Positions 11,493 to 45,331 of a DNA stretch of 64,000 nt are shown here, piece after piece (within the stretch, counting starts at the first letter, position 1; every line of letters starts with the position of its first letter). The DNA comes from Echinometra lucunter. Its lineage: Eukaryota; Echinodermata; Echinoidea; Camarodonta; Echinometridae. The position numbers and the translations under genes are program-made. The DNA is taken from NCBI GenBank assembly GCA_029962745.1, contig CM057162.1, positions 13,951,650 through 14,015,649 of the forward strand, in the 5' to 3' direction. Under the pieces are notes generated by a model. The model did not search any database. It was not told the DNA's origin and saw nothing but the letters and a program-made list of their open reading frames with translations.

Positions 11493-11663
11493 GTCCAAAA
11501 ACTGAAGCTTCAAGGAGTTGTGCTTTCTACACCATCCTCATCACATGACCTAGCAGAAGCACTGTGTTCTATGCCACAACTGAATGACCTGACACTGCTT
11601 GGAATGGATCTGATCAGGGATGAGTTTTGCTCTGCATTAAAATCAAAGGCATCATCCCTAAAG
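11493..11663 (+). CDS. Array LRR exon 1
   Basis: 171 bp, 57 codons, phase 0 to 0, acceptor gcag, donor gtatgt. First LRR: VQKLKLQGVVLSTP then SSSHDLAEALCSMP. Second LRR: QLNDLTLLGMDLIRDEF then CSALKSKASSLK. It has one codon more (Ile) than the 56-codon class. First array exon, after a partial type A-like unit. Confidence 0.9.
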
Positions 11664-11927
11664 GTATGTATGTCCTTCCTGTCTGAGAGACATTGAAAAT
11701 TTTAACAATAACTATATGAGCACTTCATATGTTAATATATGATATGTACATAAACATTTTCAATACCTAGATTTCTTCTACCATTATAAATAATATTGCA
11801 ATGGCCATATGCAAGTGATAGATGAGATTGGATTTAACGCATTATATTTCCTTATCTATTTTGATGAGTTTGGATTATTTAGGAAACAATTTAAGCAGTG
11901 ATATCATGCTATATGATGTCATACATA

Positions 11928-12427
11928 NNNNNNNNNNNNNNNNNNNNNNNNNNNNNNNNNNNNNNNNNNNNNNNNNNNNNNNNNNNNNNNNNNNNNNNNN
12001 NNNNNNNNNNNNNNNNNNNNNNNNNNNNNNNNNNNNNNNNNNNNNNNNNNNNNNNNNNNNNNNNNNNNNNNNNNNNNNNNNNNNNNNNNNNNNNNNNNNN
12101 NNNNNNNNNNNNNNNNNNNNNNNNNNNNNNNNNNNNNNNNNNNNNNNNNNNNNNNNNNNNNNNNNNNNNNNNNNNNNNNNNNNNNNNNNNNNNNNNNNNN
12201 NNNNNNNNNNNNNNNNNNNNNNNNNNNNNNNNNNNNNNNNNNNNNNNNNNNNNNNNNNNNNNNNNNNNNNNNNNNNNNNNNNNNNNNNNNNNNNNNNNNN
12301 NNNNNNNNNNNNNNNNNNNNNNNNNNNNNNNNNNNNNNNNNNNNNNNNNNNNNNNNNNNNNNNNNNNNNNNNNNNNNNNNNNNNNNNNNNNNNNNNNNNN
12401 NNNNNNNNNNNNNNNNNNNNNNNNNNN
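11928..12427. other. Assembly gap 1 (500 N) inside the array
   Basis: Exactly 500 N, the same length as the three other gaps, so it is a placeholder and not a measured size. The left edge stops in the middle of a type A intron (tgatgtcatacata). The right edge resumes just after an exon position (taaccatgtgagcac), in a type B intron. The missing piece therefore includes the end of one intron and one LRR exon, or more. Confidence 0.9.
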
Positions 12428-13151
12428 ATAACCATGTGAGCACTAATGTTAATTTATGATATGTACATATGCATTTTCAATACCTGTATTTCTTCTAACA
12501 TTTATAAATGATGTTGCAATGGTCATATGCAAGTGATGGACGAGATCAGATTTTACTCGTTACATTTCCCTATCTATTTTGATGAGTTTGGATTATTTAG
12601 GAAACACTTTACGCAGTTCTGTAATACTAAATGATGTCATAGATGAACATGTATATGATGTCATATGGTATACTCTGCATTAACCTGTTGACTACTGAAT
12701 TCTCTCCTTCCCATGGGCTTAACACAGGTCTCACCCGCTTTCCAGCATTCTACGCGTTAATATCAATTCCAGGCTAATTAGATGATTTGGATGCATGTGA
12801 AAGCAAGTTTTGGAAGTGCTTGATAGATAAATAGAAAATGCATGTTCCTTGAAGTTATCTTAGAGTAAAAATGAGTTACGTGTCAGAATTGATGGTTGAT
12901 GACTTTGAAAGACATATTTCTCCATGTATTATCAGAATATAGATTTTATCAACCGGTTAGTAGAAACTTATGTTTATCATGATCTTGAAGACATGACAGG
13001 ACTAAAAGATCCAATATTATCATTCTATGATCATCAGTGAAAGAGTTATAAATGTAGAAAACAGTTTGAAAATTAAAACAGTAGATGTTATATGTTGATC
13101 TACATGCACTCATAACTTACGTTCATGAGATGAAAACATGTACTCTTGCAG

Positions 13152-13319
13152 GTCCGAAAACTGCAGCTTCATGGAGTTGACTGTTCTACACCAGCCTCAT
13201 CACGTGACCTAGCAGAAGCACTGTGTTCTGTGCCACAACTGAATGACCTGACACTGCCAAGAATGGATCTCAGGGATGAGTTTTGCTCTGCATTGAAAGC
13301 AAAGGCATCATCCCTAAAG
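13152..13319 (+). CDS. Array LRR exon 2
   Basis: 168 bp, 56 codons, phase 0 to 0. First LRR: VRKLQLHGVDCSTPASSRD. Second LRR: LTLPRMDLRDEF. Preceded by a type B intron and of the PASSRD class. The PRM second window is shared only with exon 3. Confidence 0.92.
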
Positions 13320-13588
13320 GTATGTATGTCCTTCCTGTCAGAGAGACATTGAAAATTTGAACAATAACTATGTGAGCACTTTATATGTTAATATATGATA
13401 TGTACATATACATTTTCAATACCTATATTTCTTCTACCATTTATAAATACAATATTGCAATGGCCATATGCAAGTGATAGACGAGATTGGATTTAACTCA
13501 TTATATTTCCTTATCTATTTTGATGGGTTTGGATTATTTAGGAAACAATTTGTGCAGTGATGTCATAGTATATGATATCATACATATA

Positions 13589-16500
13589 CAGTGGGTGAAA
13601 ACGTTGAACGATGTACAATTGGGGCCAAAAACGGCAAAAATTAAAAATTCAGAATTGAAATTAAAAACCATTTTCAGCTGGTAGCCCTTTCTTTCAGCTT
13701 CCATACACATCCGATTATACTGGGATTTTTCCCAGCAGTTCCATTTTTATTCACGGTAGAAGGAAACCATGTCCAACTGCCAAACGTCTCTGATTTAAAA
13801 ACGTAGATTCTCAGTAGATGTTCTTAGATATGGTAAATGTTTCATTGGAGGGAAGTCATCTGTGCGGCTGGGGATTGTATGGGAGTTTTCATCTCTATGG
13901 TAAAAACTTAAGATTTCGTTTGTAAAGCTAAAACAAGTGGCCGAGCACTGAAGTTGGACCAAACTGTGTATATTTTTTCCAATCACAGCACCTTTTCAAA
14001 ACTATTTCGTCACTTCTCTCTCATTCTCCAAAAATACATCAGACTGAGTTGCTCTTTCAGTATGTAAAGATCAAGAGATGGGAGGACTGGATTATATACA
14101 CAGTGCTCTGACAGAGAACCATAATAGACCTCAGTGGCACATGAAAGAGAGCCTTGTTTTAATCAGGGACGTTCTGTTTTCATTCAGAGACGTTTGTTAC
14201 AAGCAATGATTTCAATTATAAAATTCTGATCTTCAATTGTTGCCGTTTATTGATGAAGAACAATTTTTCTCAATGAAACAAGTTTTTAATTTGTCGTAAA
14301 CAGTGAAAAATAAGTACTTTTGAAAACAATCATCCTGTCATATACCTCACTCTTAATACAGAATTTAAAATTTTTAACATTACAAATTAATATCCGGACG
14401 AAACACTTAAACTGCATTTTTAACACAGTTATCGCATTTATGTAGCAATACCCCTATTCTGCAATATAAGAGAGAAGCACACAGTTATTATCGCCTTTTT
14501 GGCCTCAACATTACTTCCATAAAGTCAGATTGAAGTACCCCTGATCGAGTTTCATTCGTCGGCTGTGCACCACGTCCAAGAATGTACTTATTCACACCCT
14601 GTTAATGATAAGCAACCTTTAATGATAAAGTTATGTTAAGGAAAAAAATGGTATATACCTTTGTAACGTAACACATTTATTATAAACACATTAATTCATA
14701 TTCAGTTATGAAATCATCTATCGCTAATTCACATAGGGGGGGTAGTCTATCATTTATTACACTGTAAGAAAAACGACGTTTAAATTGGCACTGCTTAAAA
14801 CAAAGTTGTTTAAAATATAAAATATGATGCTTAAAATTCAAACAATGTAGTTTAAAAGACAGATTTTGTATTTTAAACAAATATTTCTTGAAACATGAAG
14901 GAATTATTATAATAATTTTTAAATGCTGTTAAAAAACCAACTTGTGAATATTCAAGAGTATCAAAATTACTGTGTTTGCAACTCACAAGTCAACTTTTTC
15001 TTCTTTGTTTTATGCGAATTTTACAGCATTATAACTTTTTAATCTTACTCGCTAGTTGGTGGATTTTGCTTCGTCCTGCACATTTTGGAGTTGTGTTGGT
15101 GGTTGGAGGTATGGCAAGTGCAGACGAGGTTGTGGCAGTAGCAATAAAAGATTGCTACCATTCTCCAATATCTCTGAAGTGCTGGCGGTGCCTAAACTTG
15201 AATCCCTTATTCTCTATTTGGCTCGATGCACTTCATTTTGAGCCGCAGTGTACCTTTTCCAGCACCGGACTCGTGACTCGGCCCGTTGCTTGGCCCTCTT
15301 AGCCTTGTATTCATTTTCACTCATTAATTTTTTTCTGCCTTTCTTCATATTTCTTTTCACTGGATCTTATCTGGGTCTTCACATGCTCTTCACAATTCAC
15401 TGTAGGATATGACTGGTGATGATATTAGTGATATGTAATCATCATTATCTCTCCCAAAGGACCTATATGGCAAAACGAACGTCTCTGATTGATATCCAAA
15501 AATCATCATCTTCGTTTTTTCTTAGAAAGTAACCAAAAAGATGTTAATGCACAAGGGGCATATACTATGAACATACGGAGATGGTACCCCAACAGAAAAA
15601 TATAAATTTTTTACAATTTGTGCCCAACGAACGTCTATGACAAAAATGATTTTGACCCATGATATAAAATGACAGACATTTCAACAAGAAACTGACATAG
15701 CTTATGAACTGGGATGGTAATGGGTTATAATTAAACACACCAGTTAGTTTGTACAGGCTCGCAATATAGTTCCGCCAATGAAAATTTATCAACACGCGAA
15801 CGTCTCTGACAAAAACGACGTAATCCTCATCAATAGGTCTAGCACAAAAAATTTGGAACATATTGTTAAAGTAATTAGATAATTTAGGTGTATACTTTAA
15901 TACTAACCTTACAAATTGCTTTCTGCCCTGTCAACTAGTTTGCACCACTTTTACAGACTATCAAAGTGATATTTTAAGTTCAATTTTGTGTTTTATCAGA
16001 TTCAAACATCTGAATTTCTTACTTTTCTTAAAGCAATTATTTCTAAATCATATTATAAATACTTGGAAACTATGTGTGCTTTATCAGCCACAGTTAATTT
16101 CGGCTAAAGAGGCTTTACAAACAATAATGGATAGTGTTTGTTGACACCTTCATAATGGTCAGAGACGTCCGTTGTTTTCAACAGAGACGTTCGCTATGTT
16201 AACTTTCTTGAATTACGTCGGCCAAGCCATGCCAACTTTATTCTAAATAGCTTTAAACCAAAGTTCATACACCTCCTCTTCAAAAAGTATCAACTAATCC
16301 CGCAACTAACCCATCCACACCTCACGTAGCAATCAGTTTCACAACAACAATCTGGTGTAGTTATTTTTTGTACGTATATTTTTAGGATTTTTGAAAGATT
16401 TCATAGGGCCAGCTTTCAAAGATTGAATCTATTTTGGCGATTGAGCTTCCTGCTGAAACGGGCGAATGCATTGATAAGCAGCGCGTGCGCAAATGATGCC

Positions 16501-17299
16501 GGGATTCCCCACAAAGATTTCAAACAGAGACGTTCATTTTTATGCGAGACGTTCGTGATTTTCAGAAATGTTTCTAGAAACAAATGTTTACAGCCAATGT
16601 GCCACTCAAATATAGAATAGTCTTGTTTGTATGTTACATTCGGACATGTAGGTGGCCAATATTTCAACCGAAACACATTACACTCAAAGCAGTGACAGTA
16701 AATACGGAATGAACATCTCTGATAGAAATCCAGTATAATTTTACTTGAGTGGCTCTCAAGCCACAACCAAAGAGAATTGGCTAACAATTTTGGGGGGATG
16801 GATAGGGGTTTATGGGACACTAAAGGTATGTAACTTTGGGAACATCCATATTTGAATAAAGCTTGTACTGGTAGACAAAGAAGTATCAATCAGAGACATT
16901 CGTTTTTTATACATGAATTCACTTAGGCTTGCCCCTTGTAGGCGGTATTGCATCAAGGCATTTCAAAGTCCATTGATATTTTTGAGGACATGTGTGTGGT
17001 TACCCACAAAGAGGGAATGAGCTGTGGGACGGGATTCAAAGGCAGGAGAAATGTTTGTTTTTATGAAAATTTTGCAAAAACAGCCGTTTGGGCTGTTTTT
17101 TAAGCTTTGAAGACCTCTAGTTCCTAGGAAAATGAGTTAACATCTATAAAAGTATATATTTTTTAAAAGTCCAACTCGTAACCTTTGCATTGGTACCAGA
17201 AACTTAGAAAATAATTCCTTTAGGGGAAAGTTACAAGCATTTGAAGTGCTCAAGGTCTGAAAATAGCCAATTGTACATCGTTCAACGATTTGACCCGTG
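13589..17299. mobile_element. 3.7 kb TA-flanked inverted-repeat element, apparently non-autonomous
   Basis: The termini CAGTGGGTGAAAACGTTGAA and (read inward from the other end) CACGGGTCAAATCGTTGAAC begin ~34 bp inverted repeats. Both go on with CGATGTACAATTGG; the mismatches are near the tips. TA flanks both ends, and sister units show the uninterrupted site catacatatgtacatttat. CAGT termini with a TA duplication suggest the Tc1/mariner group. I find no transposase: the ORFs at 14976-15302 (+), 15565-15861 (-) and 16416-16889 (-) have no family features. Instead the interior holds 12 copies of a short AGAGACGTTC motif (listed separately). It lies in the intron between array exons 2 and 3. 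Confidence 0.85.
13783..16902. repeat. Twelve dispersed copies of a ~13 bp motif, consensus TCAGAGACGTTCG
   Basis: Forward as TCAGAGACGTTCG-like: 14163, 14184, 16159, 16181, 16524, 16544, 16890. Reverse as CGAACGTCTCTGA-like: 13783, 15476, 15628, 15797, 16710. Most differ from the consensus by 0-3 bases. Six copies form three direct pairs with cores 19-22 bp apart (14166/14187, 16162/16184, 16527/16546). All lie inside the 3.7 kb element and none were noticed elsewhere in the window. Confidence 0.8.
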
Positions 17300-17811
17300 T
17301 ACATTTATATGATGTCATATGGTATACTCTGCATTAACCTGTTAACTACTGGATTCTCTCCTTCCCATGGGCTTAATACAGGTGTCACCCACTTCCAGTA
17401 GGCTACTGGTTGATACCGATTCCAGGCTAAGATGAATATGGTGCATTTTAAAGCAAGATTTGAAAGTGCTTGATACATACATAAAAAATGCATGCTCGTT
17501 AAGGTTATTTGGGGGGTAAAAATGAGTTTTGTGTCAGAATTGATTATTGATGGATGACTTTGAAAGATATATTTCTCCATGTATTATCAGCACTATAGCT
17601 TTTATCAACCTGTTGGTAGAAACTTATGTTTATCATGATCTTGAAGACATGACAGGACTAAAAGATTCAATATTAAAATTATTTCTAGGATTATCAGTGA
17701 AAAAGTTATAAATGTAAAAAAAAATTGAAAATTAATTACAGTATATCTTATATGTTAATCTACATGCACATATAACTTATGTTCATGAGATGAAAACATG
17801 TACTCTTGCAG

Positions 17812-17979
17812 GTCCAAAAACTGAGTCTTGAAGGAGCTGACTGTTCTACACCAGCCTCATCACGTGACCTAGCAGAAGCACTGTGTTCTGTGCCACAGCT
17901 GAATGACCTGACACTGCCAAGAATGGATCTCAGGGATGAGTTTTGCTCTGCATTGAAAGCAAAGGCATCATCCCTAAAG
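17812..17979 (+). CDS. Array LRR exon 3
   Basis: 168 bp, 56 codons, phase 0 to 0. First LRR: VQKLSLEGADCSTPASSRD. Second LRR: LTLPRMDLRDEF, identical to exon 2 from SSRD to the end. It follows a type A intron although its SSRD sequence belongs to the class normally found after type B introns, so it looks recombinant. Confidence 0.92.
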
Positions 17980-18747
17980 GTATGTATGTCCTTCCTGTCT
18001 TAGAGACATTGAAAATTTTCACAATAACTATGTGAGCACTCCATATGTTAATTTATGATATGTACATATACATTTTCAATACCTATATTTCTTCTAACAT
18101 TTATAAATGATGTTGCAATGGCCATATGCAAGTGATGGACGAGATCAGATTTTACTCGTTACATTTCCCTATCTATTTTGATGAGTTTGGATTATTTAGG
18201 AAACACTTTACGCAGTTCTGTCATACTAAATGATGTCATAGATGAACATGTATATGATGTCATATGGTATACTCTGCATTAACCTGTTGACTACTGAATT
18301 CTCTCCTTCCCATGGGCTTAATACAGGTCTCACCCGCTTCCAGCATTCTATGGGTTAATATCAATTCCTTTCTAATAAGATGATTTCGATGCATGTGAAA
18401 GGAAGTTTTAAAAGTGCTTGATAGATAAAAAGAAAATGCATGTTTCTTCAAGTTATCTTAGAGTAAAGGTGAGTTACGTGTCAGAATTGATGGTTGATGA
18501 CTTTGAAAGACATATTTCTCCATATATTATCAGAATATAGATTTTATCAACCTGTTAGTAGAAACTTATGTTTATCATGATTTTGAAGACATGACAGGAC
18601 TAAAAGATCCAATATTATCATTCTATGATTATCAGTGAAAGAGTTATAAATGTAGAAAACAGTTTGAAAATTAAAACAGTAGATGTTATGTTGATCTACA
18701 TGCACACATATATTGTGTTCATGAGATGAAAACATGTGCTCTTGCAG

Positions 18748-18915
18748 GTCCGAAAACTGCTGCTTCAAGGAGTTTACTTTTCTACACCAGCCTCATCACG
18801 TGACCTAGCAGAAGCACTGTGTTCTATTCCACAGCTGAATGACCTGACACTGCTTGGAATGAATTTCAGGGATGAGTTTTGCTCTGCACTGAAAGCAAAG
18901 GCATCATCCCTAAAG
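18748..18915 (+). CDS. Array LRR exon 4
   Basis: 168 bp, 56 codons, phase 0 to 0. First LRR: VRKLLLQGVYFSTPASSRD. Second LRR: LTLLGMNFRDEF. Follows a type B intron. The acceptor context is gtgctcttgcag, one base different from the usual gtactcttgcag. Confidence 0.92.
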
Positions 18916-19690
18916 GTATGTATATACTTCCTGTCTGAGAGACATTGAAAATTTTCACAATAACTATGTGAGCACTTCATATGTTAATTTATGATATGTA
19001 CATATACATTTTCAATACCTGTATTTCTTCTAACATTTATAAATAATATTGCAATGGCCATATGCAAGTGATAGATGAGATTTGATTAACTCATATTTAC
19101 TTATCTATTTTGATGGGTTTGGATTATTTAGGAAACAATTTGTGCAGTGATGTCATAGTATATGATATCATACATATGTACATTTATATGATGTCATATG
19201 GTATACTCTGCATTAACCTGTTAACTACTGGATTCTCTCCTTCCCATGGGCTTAATACATGTGTCACCCACTTCCAGTAGGCTACTGGTTGATATCAATT
19301 CCAGGCTAAGATGAATATGGTGCATGTTAAAGCAAGATTTGGAAGTGCTTGATACATATATAGAAAATGCATGCTCCTTGAAGTTATTTTGGGGGTAAAA
19401 ATGAGTTTTGTTTCAGAATTGATTATTGATGGATGACTTTGAAAGATATATTTTTCCATGTATTATCAGCACTATAGCTTTTATCAACCTGTTGGTAGAA
19501 ACTTATGTTTATCATGATCTTGAAGACATGACAGGACTAAAAAATTCAATATTATAATTACTTCTAGGATTATCAGTGAAAAAGTTATAAATCTAAAAAA
19601 AAAATGAAAATTAATTACAGCATATCTTATATGTTAATTTACATGCACATATAACTTATGTTCATGAGATGAAAACATGTACTCTTGCAG

Positions 19691-19864
19691 GTCCAAAAAA
19701 TGAGTCTTGAAGGAGTTCAGTGTTTTACACCATCCTCATCACATGACCTAGCAGAAGCACTGTGTTCTACACCACAACTGAATGACCTGGCACTGGAAAT
19801 ACATATAAGGGATCACATGGATGAGTTTTGCTCTGCATTGAAAGCAAAGGCATCATCCCTAAAG
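19691..19864 (+). CDS. Array LRR exon 5
   Basis: 174 bp, 58 codons, phase 0 to 0. First LRR: VQKMSLEGVQCFTPSSSHD. Second LRR: LALEIHIRDHMDEF, two residues longer than the LGMD class. The third framework Leu is Met here, and Thr is replaced by Ala in the second strand. Follows a type A intron. Confidence 0.92.
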
Positions 19865-19937
19865 GTATGTATGTACTTCCTGTCTAAGAGACATTGAAAA
19901 TTGTAACAGTAAATATGTGAGCACTTCATATGTTAAT

Positions 19938-20523
19938 TATATTATATTGACTGGCCTTGAGGGGAATATCGAAAATGTTGCCCGCAAAATGAATCATATT
20001 GTCCCGAGTCGAAGACGAGGGCAATATGGATCTTTTAAGGGCAACATTTTCGATATTCCCGGAAAGTAGAGCCAGTCAATATAATTATTATTACCTACAG
20101 CTATAGTATGATGCATAATTCAAGCCTATCATTTTGTAGCAATGACAAACATGTCTGCTAATTGCCTGTCCGTCCCTCTGATATCAGCTTATTCAGGCAG
20201 GTATGTAATCCTGGCTAAGCGATTGTGACGTAAATGGTTACCTCGCGTATCCATTGTTTTTAACCTCTATCGCGCGCGTTTGCACTTTGCTAAATGCACG
20301 CTTATACAAGAAAGGTGGAATATGGATATTATGGACCGATAGTTTAGTACACATGCGCAATAGGAAAATGACAAATTTCGCAGAGGAGGGGAATATGAAT
20401 ATTATTACCCTAGTCATACAGCTGAGCCCTGGCTGAACCATTGTGACGTATTTTGTGTTGAGTGAATCAATTAGACAGACAAAATACGCGCTTATATCTT
20501 GTCTACAAAATGCCTCATTCAGG
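19938..20523. mobile_element. ~590 bp foldback insertion in the array intron after exon 5
   Basis: Replaces nothing: sister units continue directly from atgttaatttatgatatg. The left 147 bp (19940-20086) forms a large hairpin, ATATTGACTGGC pairing with GCCAGTCAATAT and AATATCGAAAATGTTGCCC pairing with GGGCAACATTTTCGATATT. The rest holds two related gggaatat-g-atattatta patches and GTGACGTA words. No ORF is credible. The superfamily was not recognised, and the exact ends are uncertain because the flanks are AT-rich. Confidence 0.75.
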
Positions 20524-21221
20524 TAATAATATATGATATATACATAATTTTCAATACCTATATTTCTTCTACCATTTATAAATAATATTGCAATGGCCAT
20601 ATGCAAGTGATAGATGAGATTCAATTAACTCATATTTCCTTATCTATTTTGATGGTTTTGGATTATTTAGGAAACAATTTGAGCAGTGATATCATACTAT
20701 ATGATGTCATACATGTACATGTATATGATGTCATATGGTATACTCTGCATTAATCTGTTGACTACTGAATTCTCTCCTTCCCATAGACTGTACTTAAAAC
20801 AGGTGTCACCCACTTCCAGTAGGCTACTGGTCAATATCAATTCCAGGCTAAGATGAATATGGTGCATGTGAAAGCAAGATTTAAAAGTGCTTGATACATA
20901 TATAGAAAATGCATGCTCCTTCAAGTTATCTTAGAGTAAAAATGAATTACGTGTCAGAATTGATGGTTGATGACTTTGAAAGATATATTTCTCCATGTAT
21001 TATCAGCACTATAGCTTTTATCAACCTGTTAGTAGAAACTTATGTTTATCATGATCTTGAAGACATGACAGGACTAAAAGATCCAATATTATCATTACTT
21101 CTAGGATTATCAGTGAAAAAGTTATAAATGTAGAAAAAAGTTTGAAAATTAAAACAGTAGATTTTATATGTTAATCTACATGCACATATAAATAATGAGA
21201 TGAAAACATGTACTCTTGCAG

Positions 21222-21395
21222 GTCCAAAAACTGAGTCTTAAAGGATTTGGGTATTATACACCATCCTCATCACATGACCTAGCAGAAGCACTGTGTTCTA
21301 TGCCACAACTGAACGACCTGACACTGCATATAAATTTAATGGGTCACAGGGATGAGTTTTTCTTTGCATTGAAAGCAAAGGCATCGTCCATAAAG
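21222..21395 (+). CDS. Array LRR exon 6
   Basis: 174 bp, 58 codons, phase 0 to 0. First LRR: VQKLSLKGFGYYTPSSSHD. Second LRR: LTLHINLMGHRDEFFFALK, ending KASSIK. It is the most individual exon of the array in its first window (GFGYY). Its upstream intron is a mosaic: type A, then type B (ttagagtaaaaatgaattacg), then type A again. Confidence 0.92.
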
Positions 21396-22158
21396 GTATG
21401 TATGTACTTCCTGTCTGAGAGACTTTGAAAATTTTAACAATAACTATGTGAGCACTTCATATGTTAAATTATGATATGTACATATACATTTTCAATACCT
21501 GTATTTCTTCTAACATTTATAAATGATGTTGCAATGGCCATATGCAAGTGATGGACGAGATTGGATTTAACTCATGATATTTCCTTATCTATTTTGATGC
21601 GTTTCGATTATTTAGGAAACTCTTTACGCAGTGATGTCATACTATATGATGTCATAGATGTACATGTATATGATGTCATATGGGATACTCTGCATTAACC
21701 TGTTGACTACTGAATTCTCTCCTTCCCATAGGCTTAATACAGGTCTCACCCGCTTCCAGCATTCTACGGGTTAATATCAATTCCATTCAAATTAGATGAT
21801 TTGGATGCATGTGAAAGCAAGTTTTGAAAGTGCTTGATAGATAAATAGAAAATGCATGTTCCTTCAAGTTATCTTAGAGTCAAAATGAGTTACGTGTCAG
21901 AATTGATTGGTAATGACTTTGAAAGACATATTTCTCCATGTATTATCAGAATATAGATTTTATCAACCGGTTAGTAGAAACTTATGTTTATCATGATCTT
22001 GAAGACATGACAGGACTAAAAGATCCAATATTATCATTCTATGATCATCAGTGAAAGTGTTGTAAATGTATAAAAAAATTTGAAAATTAAAACAGTATAT
22101 GTTGATCTACATGCACACATAACTTATGTTCATGAGATGAAAACATGTACTCTTGCAG

Positions 22159-22326
22159 GTCCAAAAACTGAGTCTTGAAGGAGTTAGGTGTTCTACACCA
22201 TCCTCATCACGTGACCTAGCAGAAGCACTGTGTTCTAATCCACAGCTGAATGACCTGACACTGCTTGGAATGGATCTCAGGGATGAGTTTTTCTCTGCAT
22301 TGAAAGCAAAGGCATCATCCCTTAAG
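22159..22326 (+). CDS. Array LRR exon 7
   Basis: 168 bp, 56 codons, phase 0 to 0. First LRR: VQKLSLEGVRCSTPSSSRD. Second LRR: LTLLGMDLRDEFFSALK. Follows a type B intron. The end is CTTAAG instead of CTAAAG, a synonymous difference just before the donor. Confidence 0.92.
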
Positions 22327-23112: not shown

Positions 23113-23292
23113 GTCCAAACACTGAAACTTGAAGAACTCGTGAATGTCACTCCAGCCTCATCACATGACCTAGTAGAAGCACTGTGTTCTATGCCACAAC
23201 TGAATGGCCTGACACTGGATATACATAAAATGGATGACATAGATGTAGATGAGTTTTGCTCTGCATTGAAAGCAAAGGCATCATCCCTAAAG
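23113..23292 (+). CDS. Array LRR exon 8
   Basis: 180 bp, 60 codons, the longest of the array, phase 0 to 0. First LRR: VQTLKLEELVNVTPASSHDLVEALC. Second LRR: LTLDIHKMDDIDVDEF, with an extra acidic pair. Follows a type A intron. The following intron starts as type B and changes to type A (ggtgtcacccacttccagta) just before assembly gap 2. Confidence 0.92.
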
Positions 23293-23663
23293 GTATGTAT
23301 GTCCTTCCTGTCTTAGAGGCATTGAAAATTTTCACAATAACTATGTGAGCACTTCATATGTTAATTTATGATTTGTACATATACATTTTCAATACCTGTA
23401 TTTCTTCTGCCATTTATAAATGATGTTGCAATGGCCATATGCAAGTGATGGACGAGATCAGATTTTACTCGTTACTTTTCCCTATCTATTTTGATGAGTT
23501 TGGATTATTTAGGAAACACTTTACGCAGTGCTGTCATACTAAATGGTGTCATAGATGTACATGTATATGATGTCATATGGTATACTCTGCATTAACCTGT
23601 TGACTACTGAATTCTCTCCTTCCCATGGGCTTAATACAGGTGTCACCCACTTCCAGTAGGCTA

Positions 23664-24163
23664 NNNNNNNNNNNNNNNNNNNNNNNNNNNNNNNNNNNNN
23701 NNNNNNNNNNNNNNNNNNNNNNNNNNNNNNNNNNNNNNNNNNNNNNNNNNNNNNNNNNNNNNNNNNNNNNNNNNNNNNNNNNNNNNNNNNNNNNNNNNNN
23801 NNNNNNNNNNNNNNNNNNNNNNNNNNNNNNNNNNNNNNNNNNNNNNNNNNNNNNNNNNNNNNNNNNNNNNNNNNNNNNNNNNNNNNNNNNNNNNNNNNNN
23901 NNNNNNNNNNNNNNNNNNNNNNNNNNNNNNNNNNNNNNNNNNNNNNNNNNNNNNNNNNNNNNNNNNNNNNNNNNNNNNNNNNNNNNNNNNNNNNNNNNNN
24001 NNNNNNNNNNNNNNNNNNNNNNNNNNNNNNNNNNNNNNNNNNNNNNNNNNNNNNNNNNNNNNNNNNNNNNNNNNNNNNNNNNNNNNNNNNNNNNNNNNNN
24101 NNNNNNNNNNNNNNNNNNNNNNNNNNNNNNNNNNNNNNNNNNNNNNNNNNNNNNNNNNNNNNN
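23664..24163. other. Assembly gap 2 (500 N) inside the array
   Basis: Placeholder gap. On its left is a normal array intron with mixed B/A features. On its right is the decayed unit variant otherwise seen at 9960-10060. At least a unit-sized piece may be missing or collapsed here. Confidence 0.85.
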
Positions 24164-24331
24164 GGGATGATAATGAGTTTCATGTTTGCAGGATTGACTA
24201 TTGAATGATGAATTTGGAAGATACATTTTTCCATTTACTGTCAACAATATTGCTTAGTTGACCCCTTGGAAAATGAAAATGAGTTTTGTGTCGGAATTGA
24301 TGATTGATGGATGAAGGCATCATCCCTAAAA
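24164..24331 (+). pseudogene. Decayed array unit with a truncated LRR exon
   Basis: 24164-24290 matches the decayed unit at 9960-10060 (gataatgagtttcatgtttg; attgactattga; tgaatttggaagatacattt). After ggatga at 24307-24312 comes only the last ~18 bases of an array exon, aaggcatcatccctaaaa, followed directly by the usual intron start gtatgtatgtac. The acceptor and about 150 bp of exon are gone, so the exon cannot be spliced in. The last exon base is A instead of G. Confidence 0.8.
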
Positions 24332-25113: not shown

Positions 25114-25287
25114 GTCCAAAAACTGAGTCTTAAAGGAGTTAAGTGTTCTACACCATCCTCATCACATGACCTAGCAGAAGCACTGTGTTCTATGCCACAA
25201 CTGAATGACCTGACACTGGATATACATTTAATGGATAACATGGATGAGTTTTGCTCTGCATTGAAAGCAAAGGCATCATCCCTAAAG
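25114..25287 (+). CDS. Array LRR exon 9
   Basis: 174 bp, 58 codons, phase 0 to 0. First LRR: VQKLSLKGVKCSTPSSSHD. Second LRR: LTLDIHLMDNMDEF. Follows a type A intron. Confidence 0.92.
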
Positions 25288-26556: not shown

Positions 26557-26730
26557 GTCCAAAAACTGAGTCTTGAAAGAGTTAAGTGTTCTACACCATC
26601 CTCTTCACATGACCTAGCAGAAGCACTGTGTTCTATGCCACAACTGAATGACCTGACACTGGATATACATATAAGGCATCACATGGATGAGTTTTGCTCT
26701 GCGTTGAAAGCAAAGGCATCATCCCTAAAG
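26557..26730 (+). CDS. Array LRR exon 10
   Basis: 174 bp, 58 codons, phase 0 to 0. First LRR: VQKLSLERVKCSTPSSSHD. Second LRR: LTLDIHIRHHMDEF. The donor is gtacgt instead of gtatgt, shared only with exon 13; this marks exons 10-12 and 13-15 as a duplicated block. Confidence 0.92.
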
Positions 26731-27508: not shown

Positions 27509-27676
27509 GTCCGAAAACTGCAGCTTCAAGGAATTTACTCTTCTACACCAGCCTCATCACGTGACCTAGCAGAAGCACTGTGTTCTATTCCACAGCTGAA
27601 TGACCTGACACTGCTTGGAATGGATCTCAGGGATGAGTTTTGCTCTGCATTGAAAGCAAAGGCATCATCCCTAACG
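27509..27676 (+). CDS. Array LRR exon 11
   Basis: 168 bp, 56 codons, phase 0 to 0. First LRR: VRKLQLQGIYSSTPASSRD. Second LRR: LTLLGMDLRDEF. The last codon before the donor is ACG (Thr) instead of AAG (Lys), giving AACG|gtatgt. Follows a type B intron. The next intron has lost about 100 bp around 27808, where a misplaced atacaggtctcaccc fragment sits. Confidence 0.92.
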
Positions 27677-28348: not shown

Positions 28349-28516
28349 GTCCGAAAACTGAGTCTTAAAGGAGTTGAGTGTCCTACACCATCCTCATCAC
28401 ATGACCTAGCAGAAGCACTGTGTTCTATTCCACAGCTGAATGACCTGACACTGCTTGGAATGGATCTCAGGGATGAGTTTTGCTCTGCATTGAAAGCAAA
28501 GGCATCATCCCTAAAG
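28349..28516 (+). CDS. Array LRR exon 12
   Basis: 168 bp, 56 codons, phase 0 to 0. First LRR: VRKLSLKGVECPTPSSSHD. Second LRR: LTLLGMDLRDEF. The first window (KGVECP) is shared with exon 13 but the second window is not. The preceding intron is a type A then type B mosaic. Confidence 0.92.
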
Positions 28517-29293: not shown

Positions 29294-29461
29294 GTCCAAA
29301 AACTGAGTCTTAAAGGAGTTGAGTGTCCTACACCATCCTCATCACATGACCTAGCAGAAGCACTGTGTTCTATTCCACAGCTGAATGACCTAACACTGTC
29401 TGGAATGAATCCCAGGGATGAGTTTTTCTCTGCATTGAAAGCAAAGGCATTATCCCTAAAG
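29294..29461 (+). CDS. Array LRR exon 13
   Basis: 168 bp, 56 codons, phase 0 to 0. First LRR: VQKLSLKGVECPTPSSSHD. Second LRR: LTLSGMNPRDEFFSALK, ending KALSLK. Donor gtacgt. Pro in the second window is unique in the array. Confidence 0.92.
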
Positions 29462-30233: not shown

Positions 30234-30407
30234 GTCCGAAAACTGCAGCTTCAAGGAATTTACTCTTCTACACCAGCCTCATCACGTGACCTAGCAGAAG
30301 CACTGTGTTCTATGCCACAACTGAATGACCTGACAATGGATATACATTTAATGGATCTCAGGGATGAGTTTTGCTCTGCATTGAAAGCAAAGGCATCATC
30401 CCTAAAG
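30234..30407 (+). CDS. Array LRR exon 14, chimeric
   Basis: 174 bp, 58 codons, phase 0 to 0. The first LRR, VRKLQLQGIYSSTPASSRD, is identical to exon 11, as is the intron before it. The second LRR, LTMDIHLMDLRDEF, joins the DIHLMD class to the LRDEF ending of the LGMD class. This is best read as recombination or gene conversion between LALEALC-type framework and the second window (after CSMPQ). The following intron has a local ~72 bp tandem duplication (30574-30717). Confidence 0.92.
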
Positions 30408-31255: not shown

Positions 31256-31429
31256 GTCCAAATAGTGCGTCTTCTAGGAGTCAAGTGTCCCACACCAGCC
31301 TCATCACATGACCTAGCAGAAGCACTGTGTTCTATGCCACAGCTGAATGACTTGACACTGGATATACATTTAATGGATTACATGGATGAGTTTTACTCTG
31401 CATTGAAAGCAAAGGCATCATCACTAAAG
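31256..31429 (+). CDS. Array LRR exon 15
   Basis: 174 bp, 58 codons, phase 0 to 0. First LRR: VQIVRLLGVKCPTPASSHD, with changed framework (IVRL for KLSL). Second LRR: LTLDIHLMDYMDEFYSALK. The acceptor context is gagttgatatcatgtactc, like exons 16 and 17. Confidence 0.9.
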
Positions 31430-32900: not shown

Positions 32901-33058
32901 TGATTTCCTACATGTTTGTGTGTACTTTAATGAACGTTTTATCGTACTAAATCCAGGATTTCCGTGTGAACTAGGAAATAAAATTCTTCTGCCAAACCTA
33001 ATTCCTCTGCATCGAAAAGTCTCGATTCTGAACAGGAACGCTTTCCCATGCAGTCACC

Positions 33059-35983
33059 ATGATCAGGTACGTTCTCTTCGTAGTAATTACTGCTACTCTG
33101 TCATGTGTCGCCAATGGTCGGATATTTAACATTCCATACCTGTCTGCTAACGAATGGAGTACTCATAACCAGGCGATCAAAGAGCGGTTATCTCTTATAA
33201 ACTTTGATCTGAGTACGGACACTCTAAGTCCTAAAAATGCCGCGGTTAAATTTTCAGATACGCTTGTTCATTATTTCGCCGAAAATGAAGAATTTGTAGA
33301 GCAGAGACGTAGCGAAAGCTATGTAACACATGAACCTAAATCTATAAACCAGGCGAGAAAATGCAAAAATGGGCTCAGAAAAAGAGCGTATGGAAAAGGC
33401 GGAACTGATGATGACAGAAAGCAATTTCGTAGAGCTGTCAAGACACTGTTTTATCTCAAGAAGAAAGCAAAGGAACACAGAGATGAAAAATCCAGAGCTC
33501 ATTTAGAAAAACGTTATAGAGGAAATTTTTCATGACTTTGCTAAAAAGGCATGCAGCGGAGCACTATTTGATCTAGCTAATATACCGTCATTCCCCCCTG
33601 ATCAGGCTAATCTCTACTTTGCAAGTAAATACAACACCCTAATCGATATAGATCCTACATCAGTGAACTGGTTTCCATACATTAATGTCAGTGAATCGGA
33701 TTTTCATTGTTTCAACATGGCCCCCATTAAGCCCAGGGACGTAAAAGCCGTTCTTCGGAGGAAAAAGGCTAGCTCGGCACCGGGGGACGATGGATTAATG
33801 TACGGTATGCTAAAACATCTAGACTGCACCCATCATTTGCTGGCGACCCTGTATAATAAGATATTGCTCACGGGTGACCCACCGGAATCTTGGTCAGAGT
33901 CTAGGGTCATTTCGATACACAAATCAGGCGACACAAATCAACCAGAAAACTTCCGTATGATCTCCCTGACCTGCTGTGTTAGTAAAGTATTCCACCAAAT
34001 TCTCGCCGAAAAAACTTCGCAGTACCTCACCGACAACCAGTTAATTGATAAACAAGTACAAAAGGCATTCATTAATGGGGTAAATGGTTGCATTGAGCAT
34101 AATCAGGTGCTCCATGAAGTTCTGAAACATGCCAGATGTAAAAAGAAGACTCTTCACATCACATTCTTTGATCTTGCCGACGCATTTGGTAGCGTTAGTC
34201 ATGACTTGATCTCTTTATCAATGGATCGTTACGCAATACCTGAACCTGTTTCTAAATACGTAACTACTCTCTACTCTCGCTTGAATGGATATGTGTGCGG
34301 CCCGGATTGGGAGTCGGATCAATTTAATTTTAAGAAGGGCGTATTCCAGGGCGACCCCTTTTCCCCTATTGTATTTCTTATGTGTTTCAACCCGATCTTA
34401 GAATACCTCACTGCCCAGAAACAGAAATATGGTTACGATTTTGCAGGTCAGCGAATAATTACAACCCCGTATGCCGATGATTTTAATTTGATTACGGGTA
34501 ATAAAAGGCATCATCAAAAGATAATTTCTGAATTGGATAAATTGCTCAATAGTATGGGTTTTAGGATGAAAGTTCGGAAATGTCGCTCCCTTTCGATTTC
34601 TGGTGGCAAGCCAGCTGTTGTGGATTTCTTCGTGGATAACGAACCTATAGGCTCTATCCAAAAACCTTTTCGAAGAAAACAGAAGAAAGGTTGGAATTCT
34701 TGAATGGAAAACTAAACACAATTCTCCAAAACATAGATGGCGTCAACATTAGAAACGAATATAAGTTGCGAATACTTACCAACTACGCACTTCCATCCTT
34801 GAGGTTCGCACTAACTATTCATGATCTCCACAATACTCGCCTTAAAGTTCTTGATACTCTCTTAGATAAATATCTCAAAAAATGGCTTGGAGTGCCTCGG
34901 CGTGGAGCGAATAACGCCCTAATACACGCCCCAGAAGGCCTTGATATCCCAACTATTTCCGAATTGTATAGGATATGTCATTGTTTATCATACAGTAGAT
35001 CGAGATTGCTTGGTGACCAATTGGTCAATCATGCCCTTGACCAACAATTGTCAAGGGAAGGAAGATGGTCGAGAAAATCCTCAACAACGGGTGATGCCCA
35101 CAAAGTCCACGATATCAGTGTACAGTGTAACTGGCAAAAAACTAAACAAAAGGTTAAACAAAACCTAAGGGCTCAAAGTAGTGAAAAATGGAAGAATGAC
35201 ATAGAACCTCTTCTAGTTCAGGGCGAATTTCTGAAAATTCTACATATAGAAAGGACAGATTTATCGTGGAAATCAATCATCTTTGGTCTTCCACAGGGGG
35301 TCCTTAAGTTTGCCATAAATGCCTGTATTGATAGTCTTCCCAGTAATAAGAACTTATACCGTTGGGGCAGACGCCTTAATGATAAATGCACCTTGTGTCA
35401 AGCTAAAGGCACCCTTCATCATGTCCTTAACCACTGTGAAAAGATGCTCGATAGATATGCTTGGCGTCACAATAACGTGATTCTCAAACTCTTCCAACTC
35501 ATGAAACAAAATAACGCTGACAAAAAAGATGTACGGGTCTTCGCCGACTTAAAAGACGTCAACATAAACGGAGGAACGGTTCCCCCTGACGTCATCCCAA
35601 CTCAACAAAAACCTGACATATGCTTTTTGGACTATAAAGAGAAAACGGTTAGGTTAATTGAATTAACCATCCCCTTTGAAACTAACATAACCGAAGCACA
35701 CCAAAGAAAATGTGACCGCTACGCAGGCCTCATTCACGACCTAGAAGAGGTTGGTTGGAAGCCAAAGCTCTTCTGCGTGGAAATCGGTAGCCGAGGTCTT
35801 ATAACCCCAGATAACAAAAAATGTCTCCTGACTATTATGAAAGAGTGCAACATGGGGAGGAAATATGCTAAGCTCAGAGACGACATTATTCGTTCAGTCC
35901 TCCTCGGATCCTACGTCGTCTTTAATAGTAGATCGGGCCTTCATGGCAATCCTACCAATACTTTGAAACATAAATCATACTAG
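33059..35983 (+). pseudogene. R2/HERO-type non-LTR retrotransposon ORF with restriction-like endonuclease, frameshifted
   Basis: Three open segments in different frames make one ORF. 33059-33535 is a basic N-terminal region (RKQFRRAVKTLFYLKKKAKE). After a frameshift near 33520 the frame is open to 34703 and holds the reverse transcriptase: APGDDGLMYGMLKH, SRVISIHKSGD, FFDLADAFGSVSHDLI, GVFQGDPFSPIVF and the active site TTPYADDF (34470-34481). A second frameshift near 34690 leads to 34691-35983, which carries the thumb, the CCHC knuckle CTLCQAKGTLHHVLNHC (about 35387-35437) and the PD-x-E-x-K nuclease: KPDICFLD, RLIELTIPFE, HQRKCDRYAG. The absence of an APE domain and this C-terminal nuclease place it in the R2/NeSL/HERO group. 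The motifs are intact, but at least two frameshifts make this copy inactive. Confidence 0.88.
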
Positions 35984-40553: not shown

Positions 40554-40727
40554 GTCCAAAAACTGAGTCTTGAAAGAGTTAAGTGTTCGGCACCATCCTC
40601 ATCACATGACCTAGCAGAAGCACTGTGTTCTATGCCACAACTGAATGACCTGACACTGGATATACATTTAATGGATCACATGGATGAGTTTTGCTCTGCA
40701 TTGAAAACAAAGGCATCATCCCTAAAG
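40554..40727 (+). CDS. Array LRR exon 16
   Basis: 174 bp, 58 codons, phase 0 to 0. First LRR: VQKLSLERVKCSAPSSSHD. Second LRR: LTLDIHLMDHMDEF. It differs from exon 17 by one residue (KTKASSLK against KAKASSLK). Both share a shortened upstream intron end (gttatgagctgacatcatgt) and a donor region with an extra tacatg (gtatgtatgtacatgtactt), so they are the youngest duplicates. Confidence 0.93.
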
Positions 40728-40923: not shown

Positions 40924-43900
40924 TTTTTTTTTGGTTTGTGTGCGCCGTTTGCGGCCCGCCCACACTGCACTGCTCTCTTAATGCTTATATTTTGTGATTT
41001 TGGTTGGATTTACCTCTCTATATATTGACACACGTTTGTATTTGTATTTTGGAAGCTACTAGACAAATTTGGAAGCATACTGGTTTGTAATCTTCTCATA
41101 TTTATTTTGTGAACTTTTTAAACTTTGCCTATGCCCTGCTGTACACTATGCATGTAGCCATGTTACACATGTTATACAACTTATACTGTACAGTTATTGT
41201 GTTCACTCATGCTTGATCTCCTCATTTGTATTGTTCTATTGTCAAACCAACTTGGCATTCACTTTCACAATAAAGCTGTCTACAGTTCTTATGCTGCCTT
41301 TTTTGTATACTGTATTGCATGTGTTATTCAGTGCAGTATGATTGCAGTGTAATAGGCTTACTGGATATTAGTGTTCATGTAAAACCTACACCTAAGGTGT
41401 ACAGGTTGATAGGGAAACGTATTGGTTCTCCTGTTCAGTATTATTCCAATACTGACTCTACTTTACGGATTTTGATATTATTATCCGGTGATGTCAATCC
41501 CAATCATTCAAGGGCAAAGTTCTAACGATGACAATACCAGACAATCCCTAGAACGTAGCATAAGATACTCATATGATATACAAACACTTTATTCCTTCAG
41601 TAAGGGATATTCATCCCAATTTCATGTTGAAAATGAGCATCTGTATAACAGGTTGTCTTTAGGTATTAATAGAAGGCGAAAGACACATCGAGGTAAGAGG
41701 GGAGGTCGTGACATGTCCATAGATAAATTCAAATTTGGTATGCTTAATTGTCGTTCTGTTCGTAATAAATCTTCATCGTTGCAAGAATTCATTATTGATC
41801 ATAGATTCGATTTGCTTGCATATGCGAAACCTGGTTGACTTTGTCGGATGATGCTGTCATATCCGATCTTTCGATACATTTTCAAGCATCGCCCTAGAAC
41901 ATCAAAGCGGGGCGGTGGAGTAGCCTTTGCTTACAGGGACAGTCTTCGTGTTGACATAAATGACCCTAGGTATTTCAAGAGCTTTGAACTGATGTCAGGA
42001 ACTGTATCTGTTGATCAAGTTAAGCTTGAGATCATCGTCATCTATCGACCACCAGGCTTTCAGCAGTTTTCTCAGTTCTTGGTTGAGTTTTCTACACTTC
42101 TTGATGAGAGGATGTTCAGACCGTATCCACTTCTGATAACTGGTGACCTGAACATTCATCTTGACAATCTTTCCTCTCCTCATACTCTGCAGTTTCTTGA
42201 TGTCATCAACAGTCATTGTTTATCCCAGCTGGTTACATCACCCACACATGATCGTGGGCACATCCTAGATGTTGTTCTTGTGAGGAACTCTGACAGGTTA
42301 CAGATATCCACACCTCAAGTTTTGCCAGGTTTATCTGACCACTCTGCCATCACTTGCCTACTGAGATTTCCTAAAGCTCCACGTCTCGACAAAACATTCA
42401 CCTCACGTAACATCAGAGGTGTAGACCGGAAAGCCTTTGCAGAGGACGTTTTAGAGAGTGACATTATGCCTAATATGTTTGATAGTGTCGATTCTGCTAC
42501 CCGCAGGTACAATACTGTACTCTCTACTCTTTATGACAGTCATGCTCCAAGCTAAAACTCGCAAGGCTAAGAATCATCAGGACAATCCTTGGTACACTGT
42601 CGATATCATTGATGCTAAGCAAAAGAGTAGGCAACTTGAACGGAAGTGGCGTTCGAATGGCAGACTACTTTCAGACCGAGAGATATACTGCGCACAACGA
42701 AATCTTGTGAACCACCTGGTGGAGCGATCCAAACGTTCTTACTACACCGGCCTCATCAGTAACTGTGGAAATGACGCTAGGAAACTGTTCACTACAGCAA
42801 ATCAACTTCTCAACCACAAGCAAAGCTCTCCTATTCCTTCACATGACAACAGTGCTGAGATGGCCCAACGCTTCATTCACTTCTTCCGCTCTAAGGTACA
42901 CTTGATTTGCGAATCTTTAACTCCTGATGAGTCAGCGTCGGATCCAATTACAGCTTCGTCGTTGGAGTCCATTCGGCCTACCTCGCCTGACGAAGTTCAC
43001 ACACTTCTTCGCAAACTGCCTGCAAAGTCTTGTCGACTTGATCTGATACATAGCTCAATCATCAAGGATTGCTCTACTTCATTTGCTCCTATCATTTCCA
43101 AAATTATTAATTTAAGCATAAGTCATGCCCATATTCCTTCTGATCTCAAAACTGCACATATCACTCCCATATTGAAGAAGCCTAATCTCGATTCTGAATT
43201 GTTATCCAACTACCGACCTGTCTCAAATCTTCCATTTTTGTTTAAAATACTTGAAAGAATTGTATTTTGTAGGTTGTTGGACTATTGCATTGAGAATGAC
43301 TTGCTTGACCCATATCAATCGGCATACCGCCCTCAGCACAGTGTAGAGACCCTTCTTCTTAACGTATCTAGTTCCATTCTCCATGAAATGGATGCGGGAA
43401 AGGTAACTGCCATGATACTCCACGATCTGTCTTCCGCGTTTGATACGGTGAACCACAAAATTTTGTTAAACACCCTAATGTCTCTTGGTATTAAGGGTAA
43501 GGCCCTAGATTGGTTCACATCATACCTGTCATGTCACTCACAAGCTGTTTTGATAAATGGCTGTACTTCTGATTTCTTACCTGCGGCGTTCCGCAAGGCT
43601 CTGTGGGCGGGCCTATCCTTTTCTCCTTGTATCTGATTGGACTGAAAAACATTTTTCGGCATCACTCTGTTAATTATCATATCTATGCCGATGACATTCA
43701 GATTTTTACATCCTTCAAACCCGATTCAGATACAGCTGCTGTCGCTATCAGCAATCTGGAGGATTGCATAAAGGATGTACACCAATGGTTGTGCTCACAC
43801 TCTTTGAAATTGAATTTTACTAAATGTGAAATTGTGTTGTATGGCTCTAAAACCCATCTGTCTAAAGTACAAATTACATCAATTTCTATTGCCAACCACA

Positions 43901-44650
43901 CTATTGAAGTTTCTGACACATGCCGTAATCTTGGTGTGTTTCTCGATTCGAACATGACGATGGGTACTCACATTCAATACATCTGTAAATCTGTACGGTA
44001 TCAGCTACGCAACCTAGGGTTCATACGTAAATATTTGACTCTTGATGCAACAGAGAAAATTGTTCATTCATTGATCTCATCTCGTCTTGATTTCGGCAAT
44101 GCACTTTTATTTAACCTACCCCAGTCCCAAATTACTCGTTTGCAAAAACTACAGAATCCTGCTGCTCGTATAGTGACCCTTTGTAACATATTTACCCATA
44201 TCATGCCTGTTCTTAAATCTTTACATTGGTTGCCCATGAGTGAACGTGTCAAATTCAAAATCCTTTTATACTGGTATATCACTCAGTTCATGGCTCTGCT
44301 CCACAGTACAACTCTGCTCTCATTCACACCTACACACCATCTAGGCTTCTACGCTCCAGTGACTCTGGTCTTCTTACAGTTCCAAAATGTAAAACAAAGT
44401 GGGGGCAAAGGGCATTCATCCATGCGGGGCCCTCACTATGGAATTCCCTCCCACGAGAGATCCGGGATAGCAAGCATGTGGAAACATTTATGATTAAACT
44501 AAAAACGTACCTCTTTAACTCATTTTATCAATGATTTTCTGTTACTTGTAATTTTGTTTGCCCCCCTTCAGTTGTGCGCCTTGAGCATCTCTTACGAGAT
44601 GGATATGGCGCCTAACAAATTGCATATATTATTATTATTATTATTATTAT
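40924..44650 (+). mobile_element. L2/CR1-like LINE, nearly full length, degraded
   Basis: Interrupts the type A intron between ttatatttcctt and tctattttgatgggt. The sister units have the two joined as tttccttatctattttgatg. The 3' end has the L2-style tail gatggcgcct-aacaaattgcat followed by (ATT)n at 44624-44650. Endonuclease and reverse transcriptase ORF pieces fill 41730-44550 and are described separately. The 5' region (40924-41480) has no recognisable ORF1. Confidence 0.88.
41728..44550 (+). pseudogene. LINE endonuclease and reverse transcriptase ORF, frameshifted
   Basis: APE endonuclease: FKFGMLNCRSVRNKS near 41728-41772. A frame change just before the codons for ETWL (about 41827) is followed by RGGGVAFAYRDSL, VIYRPPG, LITGDLNIHLDNL and LSDHSAITCLL. 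The next frame (from about 42545) reads NPWYTVDIIDAKQKSR, then the RT motifs HITPILKKPNLDSE, NYRPVSNLPFLFKILERI, DLSSAFDTVNHKILL. The expected GVPQGSV block near 43586 lies across another frameshift. HIYADDIQIF (active site YADD) is at about 43678-43707, and the C-terminal RLQKLQNPAARIVTL near 44139. At least three frameshifts make this copy dead. The APE domain separates it from the R2-like element. Confidence 0.9.
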
Positions 44651-45157
44651 CTATTTTGATGGGTTTGGATTATTTAGGAAACAATTTAAGCTGTGATATC
44701 GTACTATATGATGTCATACATGTACATGTATATGATGTCATATGGTATACTCTGCATTAACCTGTTGACTACTGAATTCTCTTCTTCCCATAGACTTAAT
44801 ACAGGTGTCACCCACTTCCAGTAGGCTACTGGTCAATATCAATTCCAGGCTAAGATGAATATGGTGCATGTGAAAGCAAGATTTGAAAGTGCTTGATACA
44901 TCTATAGAAAAAGCATGCTCCTTCAAGTTATTTTGGGCGTAAAAATGAGTTTCATTTCAGAATTGATTACTGATGGATGACTTTGAAAGATATATTTCTC
45001 CATGTATTATCAGCACTATAGCTTTCATCAACCTGTTGGTAGAAACTTATGTTTATCATGATCTTGAAGACATGACAGGACTAAAAGATTCAATATTATC
45101 ATTACTTCTATGATTATCAGTGAAAAAGTTATGAGCTGACATCATGTACTCTTGCAG

Positions 45158-45331
45158 GTCCAAAAACTGAGTCTTGAAAGAGTTAAGTGTTCGGCACCAT
45201 CCTCATCACATGACCTAGCAGAAGCACTGTGTTCTATGCCACAACTGAATGACCTGACACTGGATATACATTTAATGGATCACATGGATGAGTTTTGCTC
45301 TGCATTGAAAGCAAAGGCATCATCCCTAAAG
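45158..45331 (+). CDS. Array LRR exon 17, last one seen
   Basis: 174 bp, 58 codons, phase 0 to 0. First LRR: VQKLSLERVKCSAPSSSHD. Second LRR: LTLDIHLMDHMDEF. It is followed by a type B intron that breaks off at about 45868 (gactttgaaagaca|gttcttc). No 3' partner exon was found in the remaining 18 kb, so the gene end is either lost, beyond the window or too divergent to see. Confidence 0.93.

Follow-up and report, generated by a model that had tools for sequence, protein, structure and literature searches.

A tandem array of at least 17 frame-compatible exons, each predicted to encode two leucine-rich repeats, downstream of one NACHT exon in the sea urchin Echinometra lucunter

It is in a stretch of 64,000 nt from the sea urchin Echinometra lucunter (CM057162.1; hereafter the window, whose positions are used for all coordinates) that we found a tandem array of 17 intact, frame-compatible exon copies downstream of a single NACHT exon. 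The array is real, and we consider it probable, though with reservations, that it belongs to one NLR gene whose recognition surface has been diversified by exchange among the copies together with selection, in-frame exon skipping being likely. In the mechanism that we propose, the array would supply the recognition half of a single NLR gene of sea-urchin type, lying behind one NACHT exon, and each of the 17 phase-0 exons would give two predicted ribonuclease-inhibitor-type leucine-rich repeats (LRRs). Transcripts in which these exons are spliced in series, with skipping, would encode solenoids of variable length, which may bind ligands and may have an immune role. Unequal crossing-over or gene conversion would keep the exon scaffold and much of the introns alike, the same exchange would reshuffle short variable segments among the copies, and selection would retain new variants on the predicted concave strands and on the loops after them. 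Exchange is read here from the mosaic pattern of the copies, and selection from the balance of replacement and silent changes.

The array exons, the NACHT exon and their urchin relatives

All of the array exons were found by tblastn, were checked for frame and splice sites, and lie on the + strand between 11493 and 45331. Each of the 17 has AG before it and GT after it, is free of stop codons and keeps phase 0; seven are 168 bp long, one is 171 bp, eight are 174 bp and one is 180 bp, all multiples of three, and the introns are of the GT-AG type. The first-pass annotation of this DNA had given these lengths, this phase and a common type of acceptor and donor, and all were confirmed in 17/17 exons. 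Chance likeness is excluded, since whole units of ~1 kb match one another with E = 0 or near 0. The features are as follows.

5388..7078, +, NACHT exon: 2 nt, then 563 codons; Walker A motif GEAGAGKT; donor GTGAGT, phase 0
8429..8587, +, diverged first LRR exon: 159 bp, phase 0; tblastn with a Strongylocentrotus purpuratus exon, 64% identity, E 5.9e-18
11493..11663, +, E1, 171 bp
13152..13319, +, E2, 168 bp
17812..17979, +, E3, 168 bp
18748..18915, +, E4, 168 bp
19691..19864, +, E5, 174 bp
21222..21395, +, E6, 174 bp
22159..22326, +, E7, 168 bp
23113..23292, +, E8, 180 bp
25114..25287, +, E9, 174 bp
26557..26730, +, E10, 174 bp
27509..27676, +, E11, 168 bp; last codon ACG, not AAG, with the donor GT intact
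28349..28516, +, E12, 168 bp
29294..29461, +, E13, 168 bp
30234..30407, +, E14, 174 bp
31256..31429, +, E15, 174 bp
40554..40727, +, E16, 174 bp
45158..45331, +, E17, 174 bp; one residue apart from E16
24314..24331, +, relic of an 18th array exon, a dead copy of which the final 18 bp are left
10622..11061, +, partial array unit 5' of E1, intron part alone (blastn of one unit against the window)
11928..12427, assembly gap of 500 N inside the array
23664..24163, assembly gap of 500 N inside the array

The NACHT exon is single and upstream of the array, as had been proposed (Pfam NACHT, E 3.1e-19), its reading frame is open across all its codons, and its NACHT domain with a Walker A motif is that of an NLR. 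The next exon is the diverged LRR exon at 8429-8587, not an array exon; the first-pass annotation had overlooked it, as it had the relic copy and the two retrotransposon remnants described below. We infer that the NACHT exon and the array exons are parts of one gene. Because two gaps lie within the array, 17 exons are a minimum, and at 11928-12427 the same part of the unit stands on both flanks, so that at least one unit is probably missing there. The exon-to-exon spacings are 840-1022 bp in 9/16 cases, and the other seven, of 1.4-9.3 kb, are widened by gaps, by inserted DNA or by remnants of retrotransposons. A single unit is ~84-94% identical to the others, the longest self-match blocks printed reach at most 95%, and the introns near the exons diverge by 0.115 on average. 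The units had been called near-identical, of ~940 bp, with homogenised introns: recent tandem copying stands and homogenisation stands in part, whereas the near-identity, the regular spacing and an even likeness of the introns do not.

A search of the protein collection with the NACHT exon gave 600 relatives at E<=0.001, and among the best 120 of them, the named ones belong to S. purpuratus or Lytechinus, with 64-70% identity in the best 31 and ~42-53% in the Lytechinus sequences; many S. purpuratus sequences are less similar than the best 31. These relatives show the full layout: an N-terminus with 2A-like and Death parts (the 2A part is known in S. purpuratus NLRs, PMC4981915), NACHT, a diverged first LRR exon and a run of repeats of 55-58 residues, followed in some by a last exon beginning GSFPQI or similar. 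The repeat motif of ~56 residues, V.xLxL...EALC..P.L..L.L..., placed after the diverged first LRR exon, assigns the window gene to this urchin NLR subfamily. The array repeats of one S. purpuratus relative, P0121, are 42-65% identical to those of the window, and its structure model matches NLRP9, NLRP3 and ribonuclease inhibitor; by way of this model, a C-terminal ribonuclease-inhibitor-like solenoid with two LRRs per array exon is predicted, which agrees with the earlier proposal of an NLR with two LRRs per phase-0 exon. The NLR is of echinoderm type. The protein search against echinoderm NLRs likewise bore out that annotation, the closest being S. purpuratus and L. pictus models with up to 8 and 9 repeats per NACHT.

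Of 152 fetched proteins, 76 had one or more matches to a profile of the repeat, a lone match often being the diverged first exon. The longest runs were of 9 repeats (P0123 of L. pictus) and 8 repeats (P0121), with P0130 also counting 8, one of which is the first exon; these are the runs among the 152 proteins fetched, and longer ones are possible beyond them. The 17 or more exons of the window are the largest run of such exons among the urchin NLRs fetched. In residues 856-1286 of P0123, two types of repeat alternate, HTLHIDEPLSS and HTLQIWNYEPLSS or similar, so that this array seems to have grown by two-exon blocks.

Exchange among the copies, selection and splicing

The repeats exchange sequence at a sub-exon scale. 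The PHI (pairwise homoplasy index) test, on 64 informative sites free of gaps, indicates recombination (p 0.001). Rm, the minimum number of recombination events, is 11, with five intervals inside the exon, although repeated change at selected sites can inflate this number. In a tree of the 17 window repeats with 40 repeats of relatives, for some of which the text pattern had picked up only part of the repeats, the window repeats form one clade with a support of 0.997, so that it is within this gene alone that they expanded or were homogenised. The mosaic is seen in single pairs: E2 and E3 are identical in their second halves and 8.9% apart in their first halves, and E10 and E13 have introns 1.2% apart and exons that differ by 15 replacement and 4 silent changes. 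The distances of the two exon halves are weakly correlated (r 0.30, p 0.04). Exon distances show no significant correlation with those of the downstream intron (r 0.17, p 0.15) and a stronger one with those of the upstream intron (r 0.44, p 0.0005). Short-tract unequal crossing-over or gene conversion fits this mosaic pattern.

The differences between copies are mostly replacements, and they gather on the predicted face. Pairwise differences at codon positions 1, 2 and 3 are 12.5, 12.8 and 7.7%; the mean replacement (dN) and silent (dS) divergences are 0.133 and 0.077 over the whole array exon, 0.339 and 0.083 at 12 predicted exposed strand positions, and 0.048 and 0.067 in the helix half. Events counted on a tree give 111 replacement and 22 silent changes for the whole exon (ratio of replacement to silent rates, omega, 1.66, p 0.027), 53 and 2 at the predicted exposed strand positions (omega 6.3, p 0.0016), and 21.5 and 12.5 in the helix half (omega 0.59, p 0.24, thus not significantly below 1). 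By permutation over 58 columns, 53/111 replacement events in the 12 predicted-face columns are far more than expected (p 0.0005), and the variability of the columns is correlated between the window and each of seven other arrays (7/7, Spearman 0.41-0.53), a correlation to which the conserved core columns also contribute. With the tests on the whole exon borderline, diversifying selection of surface residues is suggested by the replacement and silent changes at the predicted exposed strand positions, subject to the cautions on those tests and on the intron bins given below. This excess on the predicted face, the sub-exon mosaicism and the public urchin models with 8-9 repeats had all escaped the first-pass annotation.

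The profile of differences along the unit was first drawn from 14/17 units, leaving out E5 and E15 for their diverged downstream flanks and E1 needlessly, and it had a bin of 29% at the first strand. It was repeated with 14, 15 and 17 units and with bins set to the exon start; with 17 units, the 24-bp bins of the exon differ by 16, 22, 2.5, 7, 19, 6 and 4%, and those of the introns by 3-19% upstream and 4.5-35% downstream. The contrast within the exon therefore holds, and the height of the peak depends on the bins.

In splicing, serial inclusion with skipping of whole exons appears likely, on the basis of the frame-neutral exons and of the relatives' models. The predicted isoforms of L. pictus LOC135158025 have 6, 5 or 3 repeats, those of S. 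purpuratus LOC105442007 have 7 or 6 (one partial), and those of LOC100889937 have 5 or 4 (first exon counted), whereas models X3 and X4 of S. purpuratus LOC105443124 join different repeats to the same NACHT part. Thus, of the earlier claim that any subset of exons can be joined in frame into a long solenoid, the frame neutrality holds, and the relatives' models are serial and differ by whole repeats; these are predicted models only. Joining all 17 would give 34 LRRs, which with the first exon would exceed one turn of the horseshoe in the geometry of ribonuclease inhibitor.

Reading past the donor meets an in-frame stop after 7-12 codons in 17/17 exons. Several S. purpuratus models (P0016, P0019, P0121 and others) end a few intron-like codons past an array repeat (VCVS, VCLS, VYVY); such ends may be real short isoforms or may come from the gene prediction. 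The idea that an intronic polyadenylation site follows every exon was considered and found no support, AATAAA or ATTAAA occurring within 700 nt downstream in just 5/17.

Weighing the alternatives

Several points weigh against the reading of one NLR gene diversified by exchange and selection, in addition to the possible inflation of Rm and the helix-half omega, which is not significantly below 1. The upstream intron-exon correlation means that exchange is incomplete, and exchange itself violates the tree used for the event counts. Bootstrapping of codons puts pN-pS (the proportions of replacement and silent differences) between -0.006 and 0.099, an interval that just spans zero (4% of replicates <=0), and in eight disjoint nearest pairs the pN/pS ratio is 1.42, with a Fisher p of 0.09. 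The exposed positions follow the LxxLxLxxNxL consensus and were set after the alignment had been seen, columns 27 and 49, off the predicted face, vary too, and the introns are not uniformly quiet, some of their bins being as variable as the exon strand bins. A Pfam scan of two single array exons (E7 and E9; 2/17) matched 0 families, and Pfam LRR models match the relatives only below the cut-offs. The isoforms are NCBI predicted models, not transcripts of this gene. Finally, searches with the relatives' sequences gave no convincing match to the N-terminal Death/2A exon, including the 5.4 kb upstream, and did not find the last exon (GSFPQI.KGNF.FNG) up to 64000, 18.7 kb downstream, so the gene is either incomplete in the window or truncated. 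The unevenness of the introns and the dependence of the peak on the bins lowered our confidence in this reading slightly, and raised as slightly that in the neutral explanation that follows.

Neutral concerted evolution alone, in which diverged paralogous arrays would have brought in the replacement excess through conversion and diversifying selection would play no part in this gene, is the alternative that survives best, and we regard it as unlikely. The strong mosaicism, the borderline whole-exon dN/dS tests and an intron divergence that matches that of the exon in places all agree with it. However, it has to face the concentration of replacement events on the predicted face and the variation of the same columns in the 7/7 other arrays; a random import of sequence would bring silent changes too, and just 2 silent events are found there, and relaxed constraint alone would lead to a ratio near 1 instead of the 4-6 found.

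That the array is a dead or truncated NLR fragment, a decaying relic with neither a working N-terminus nor a last exon, we judge quite unlikely. It would account for the missing Death and known last exons, and one dead exon copy and two retrotransposon remnants in introns speak for it. Nevertheless, frame, acceptor and donor are kept in 17/18 detectable copies, the NACHT exon is open over its 563 codons, and the helix-half dN of 0.048 stands against an intron divergence of 0.115. The Death/2A exon may sit before the start of the window; the last exon may fall in one of the two gaps or beyond the window, and it is absent from several relatives' models as well. The two remnants, both of which run in the sense direction of the gene, are:

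33032..35983, +, remnant of a retrotransposon in the E15-E16 intron; reverse transcriptase, its open pieces not in one frame
41839..44493, +, remnant of a retrotransposon in the E16-E17 intron; endonuclease and reverse transcriptase, the open pieces not in one frame

A Dscam-like array, in which mutually exclusive splicing would admit a single one of the 17 exons, or a regulated few, to each transcript, had been offered as a possibility by the first-pass annotation and is very unlikely. Mutually exclusive splicing is enforced by short introns, by a frame clash or by docking-selector pairing. Acceptors and donors of one kind, phase 0 in all exons and the different repeats on the same NACHT part in models X3 and X4 would suit it, but no intron between array exons is shorter than 672 nt, which leaves no steric block, multiple inclusion stays in frame, all introns are GT-AG, and relatives' models hold up to 8-9 repeats in one protein. 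When the intron that follows exon 2 was compared with the 300 nt preceding the array exons, pairing did not rise above shuffles in any of 11 segments (z -1.5 to 0.6), in a test that covered the upstream side of the array only, with a rough doublet-block shuffle.

That the array is an assembly artefact, made of haplotype copies placed in succession or of wrongly joined repeats, is hardly credible in spite of the two 500-N gaps, given that 16/17 exons lie within two gap-free stretches (12428-23663 with 7 exons, 24164-49927 with 9) and that similar repeat runs are found in other urchin annotations. Moreover, no co-linear self-match in the array is longer than 2.9 kb, and the 40 longest printed, with identities of 84-95%, are scattered over many offsets, where a duplicated haplotype would make one long block. 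Haplotype duplication as the origin of the units was rejected for the same scattered self-matches of 2.9 kb or less. Highest among the 40 longest self-matches printed, at 95%, is a two-unit block, 26012-27805 (E10-E11) against 28749-30536 (E13-E14).

Other features of the region can be listed briefly. A dispersed element of ~480 bp occurs in three copies ~85% identical (25520-26000, 50676-51156 and 60497-60928), one of them reversed and one of them within an array intron. Tandem repeats at 2029-2964 and 46278-47345 (periods 115-278 and 157), with a motif in common, flank the gene on both sides, and an Rfam scan gave 0 matches at gathering scores. Among the relatives, the S. purpuratus model P0136 has five array repeats (one partial) joined to a reverse transcriptase; this is probably a chimeric annotation to which an element in an array intron gave rise.

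Known systems and significance

The closest relatives by descent, the 2A/Death-NACHT-LRR proteins of S. purpuratus and L. pictus, share with the window the NACHT type, the diverged first LRR exon and the repeats of ~55-58 residues in series; in contrast, they have at most 9 repeats in the 152 fetched proteins, as against at least 17 exons in the window, with exchange between units at the DNA level. Among the open-licence papers listed by the literature searches, none dealt, by title or abstract, with an urchin LRR-exon array, which is not proof that none exists. In mammalian NLRP and RNH1 genes, two LRRs also share exons of ~171 bp, and in human NLRP3, every LRR exon is exactly 171 bp, exon skipping is known and the skip of one exon keeps the frame (PMC6642158); recent copies, shared introns and a replacement excess, as in the window, do not appear in the passages of that paper drawn on here. 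The zebrafish NLR-B30.2 groups 2b and 4 differ in being vertebrate and of FISNA-NACHT type, and the LRRs of that family are termed "not particularly variable" in the part of the source used (PMC4852459), the opposite of the window array.

In way of working, the nearest systems are the fungal het-d/het-e genes and the algal ROCO genes. In het-d/het-e, WD repeats are exchanged in concert, and diversifying selection acts on four surface residues of each repeat (PMC1805685, in part), but these are WD repeats in fungal allorecognition, and the window has LRR pairs on separate exons, with splicing possible; the window gene would work alike but, given the LRR fold of its relative and its animal NACHT, is no member of that group. 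Brown algal LRR-ROCO genes combine LRRs on separate exons with exon shuffling, diversifying selection and alternative splicing (PMC11378527, in part), and differ in having one LRR per exon, a ROCO GTPase in place of NACHT and an algal host. The lamprey variable lymphocyte receptor (VLR) germline gene is incomplete, and its LRR cassettes are assembled by a process like gene conversion (PMC13428168, in part); the window array is not of this kind, its units being spliceable exons with AG and GT in 17/17 cases behind a NACHT exon.

A further step, possible and yet doubtful, is that the array serves as a bank of cassettes, the number and order of its exons being specific to the individual and reshuffled below the exon level, from which cells would splice subsets to the one NACHT exon; if this were true, a single animal NLR gene would give an individual-specific repertoire of recognition solenoids. 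The matter bears on the source of specificity in the large NLR families of invertebrates, which have no rearranging antigen receptors. At this one locus, exchange among repeats would be joined with selection of the surface, as reported for the fungal het genes, but on LRR-pair exons that can be spliced separately, so that splicing would be a second way of generating diversity.

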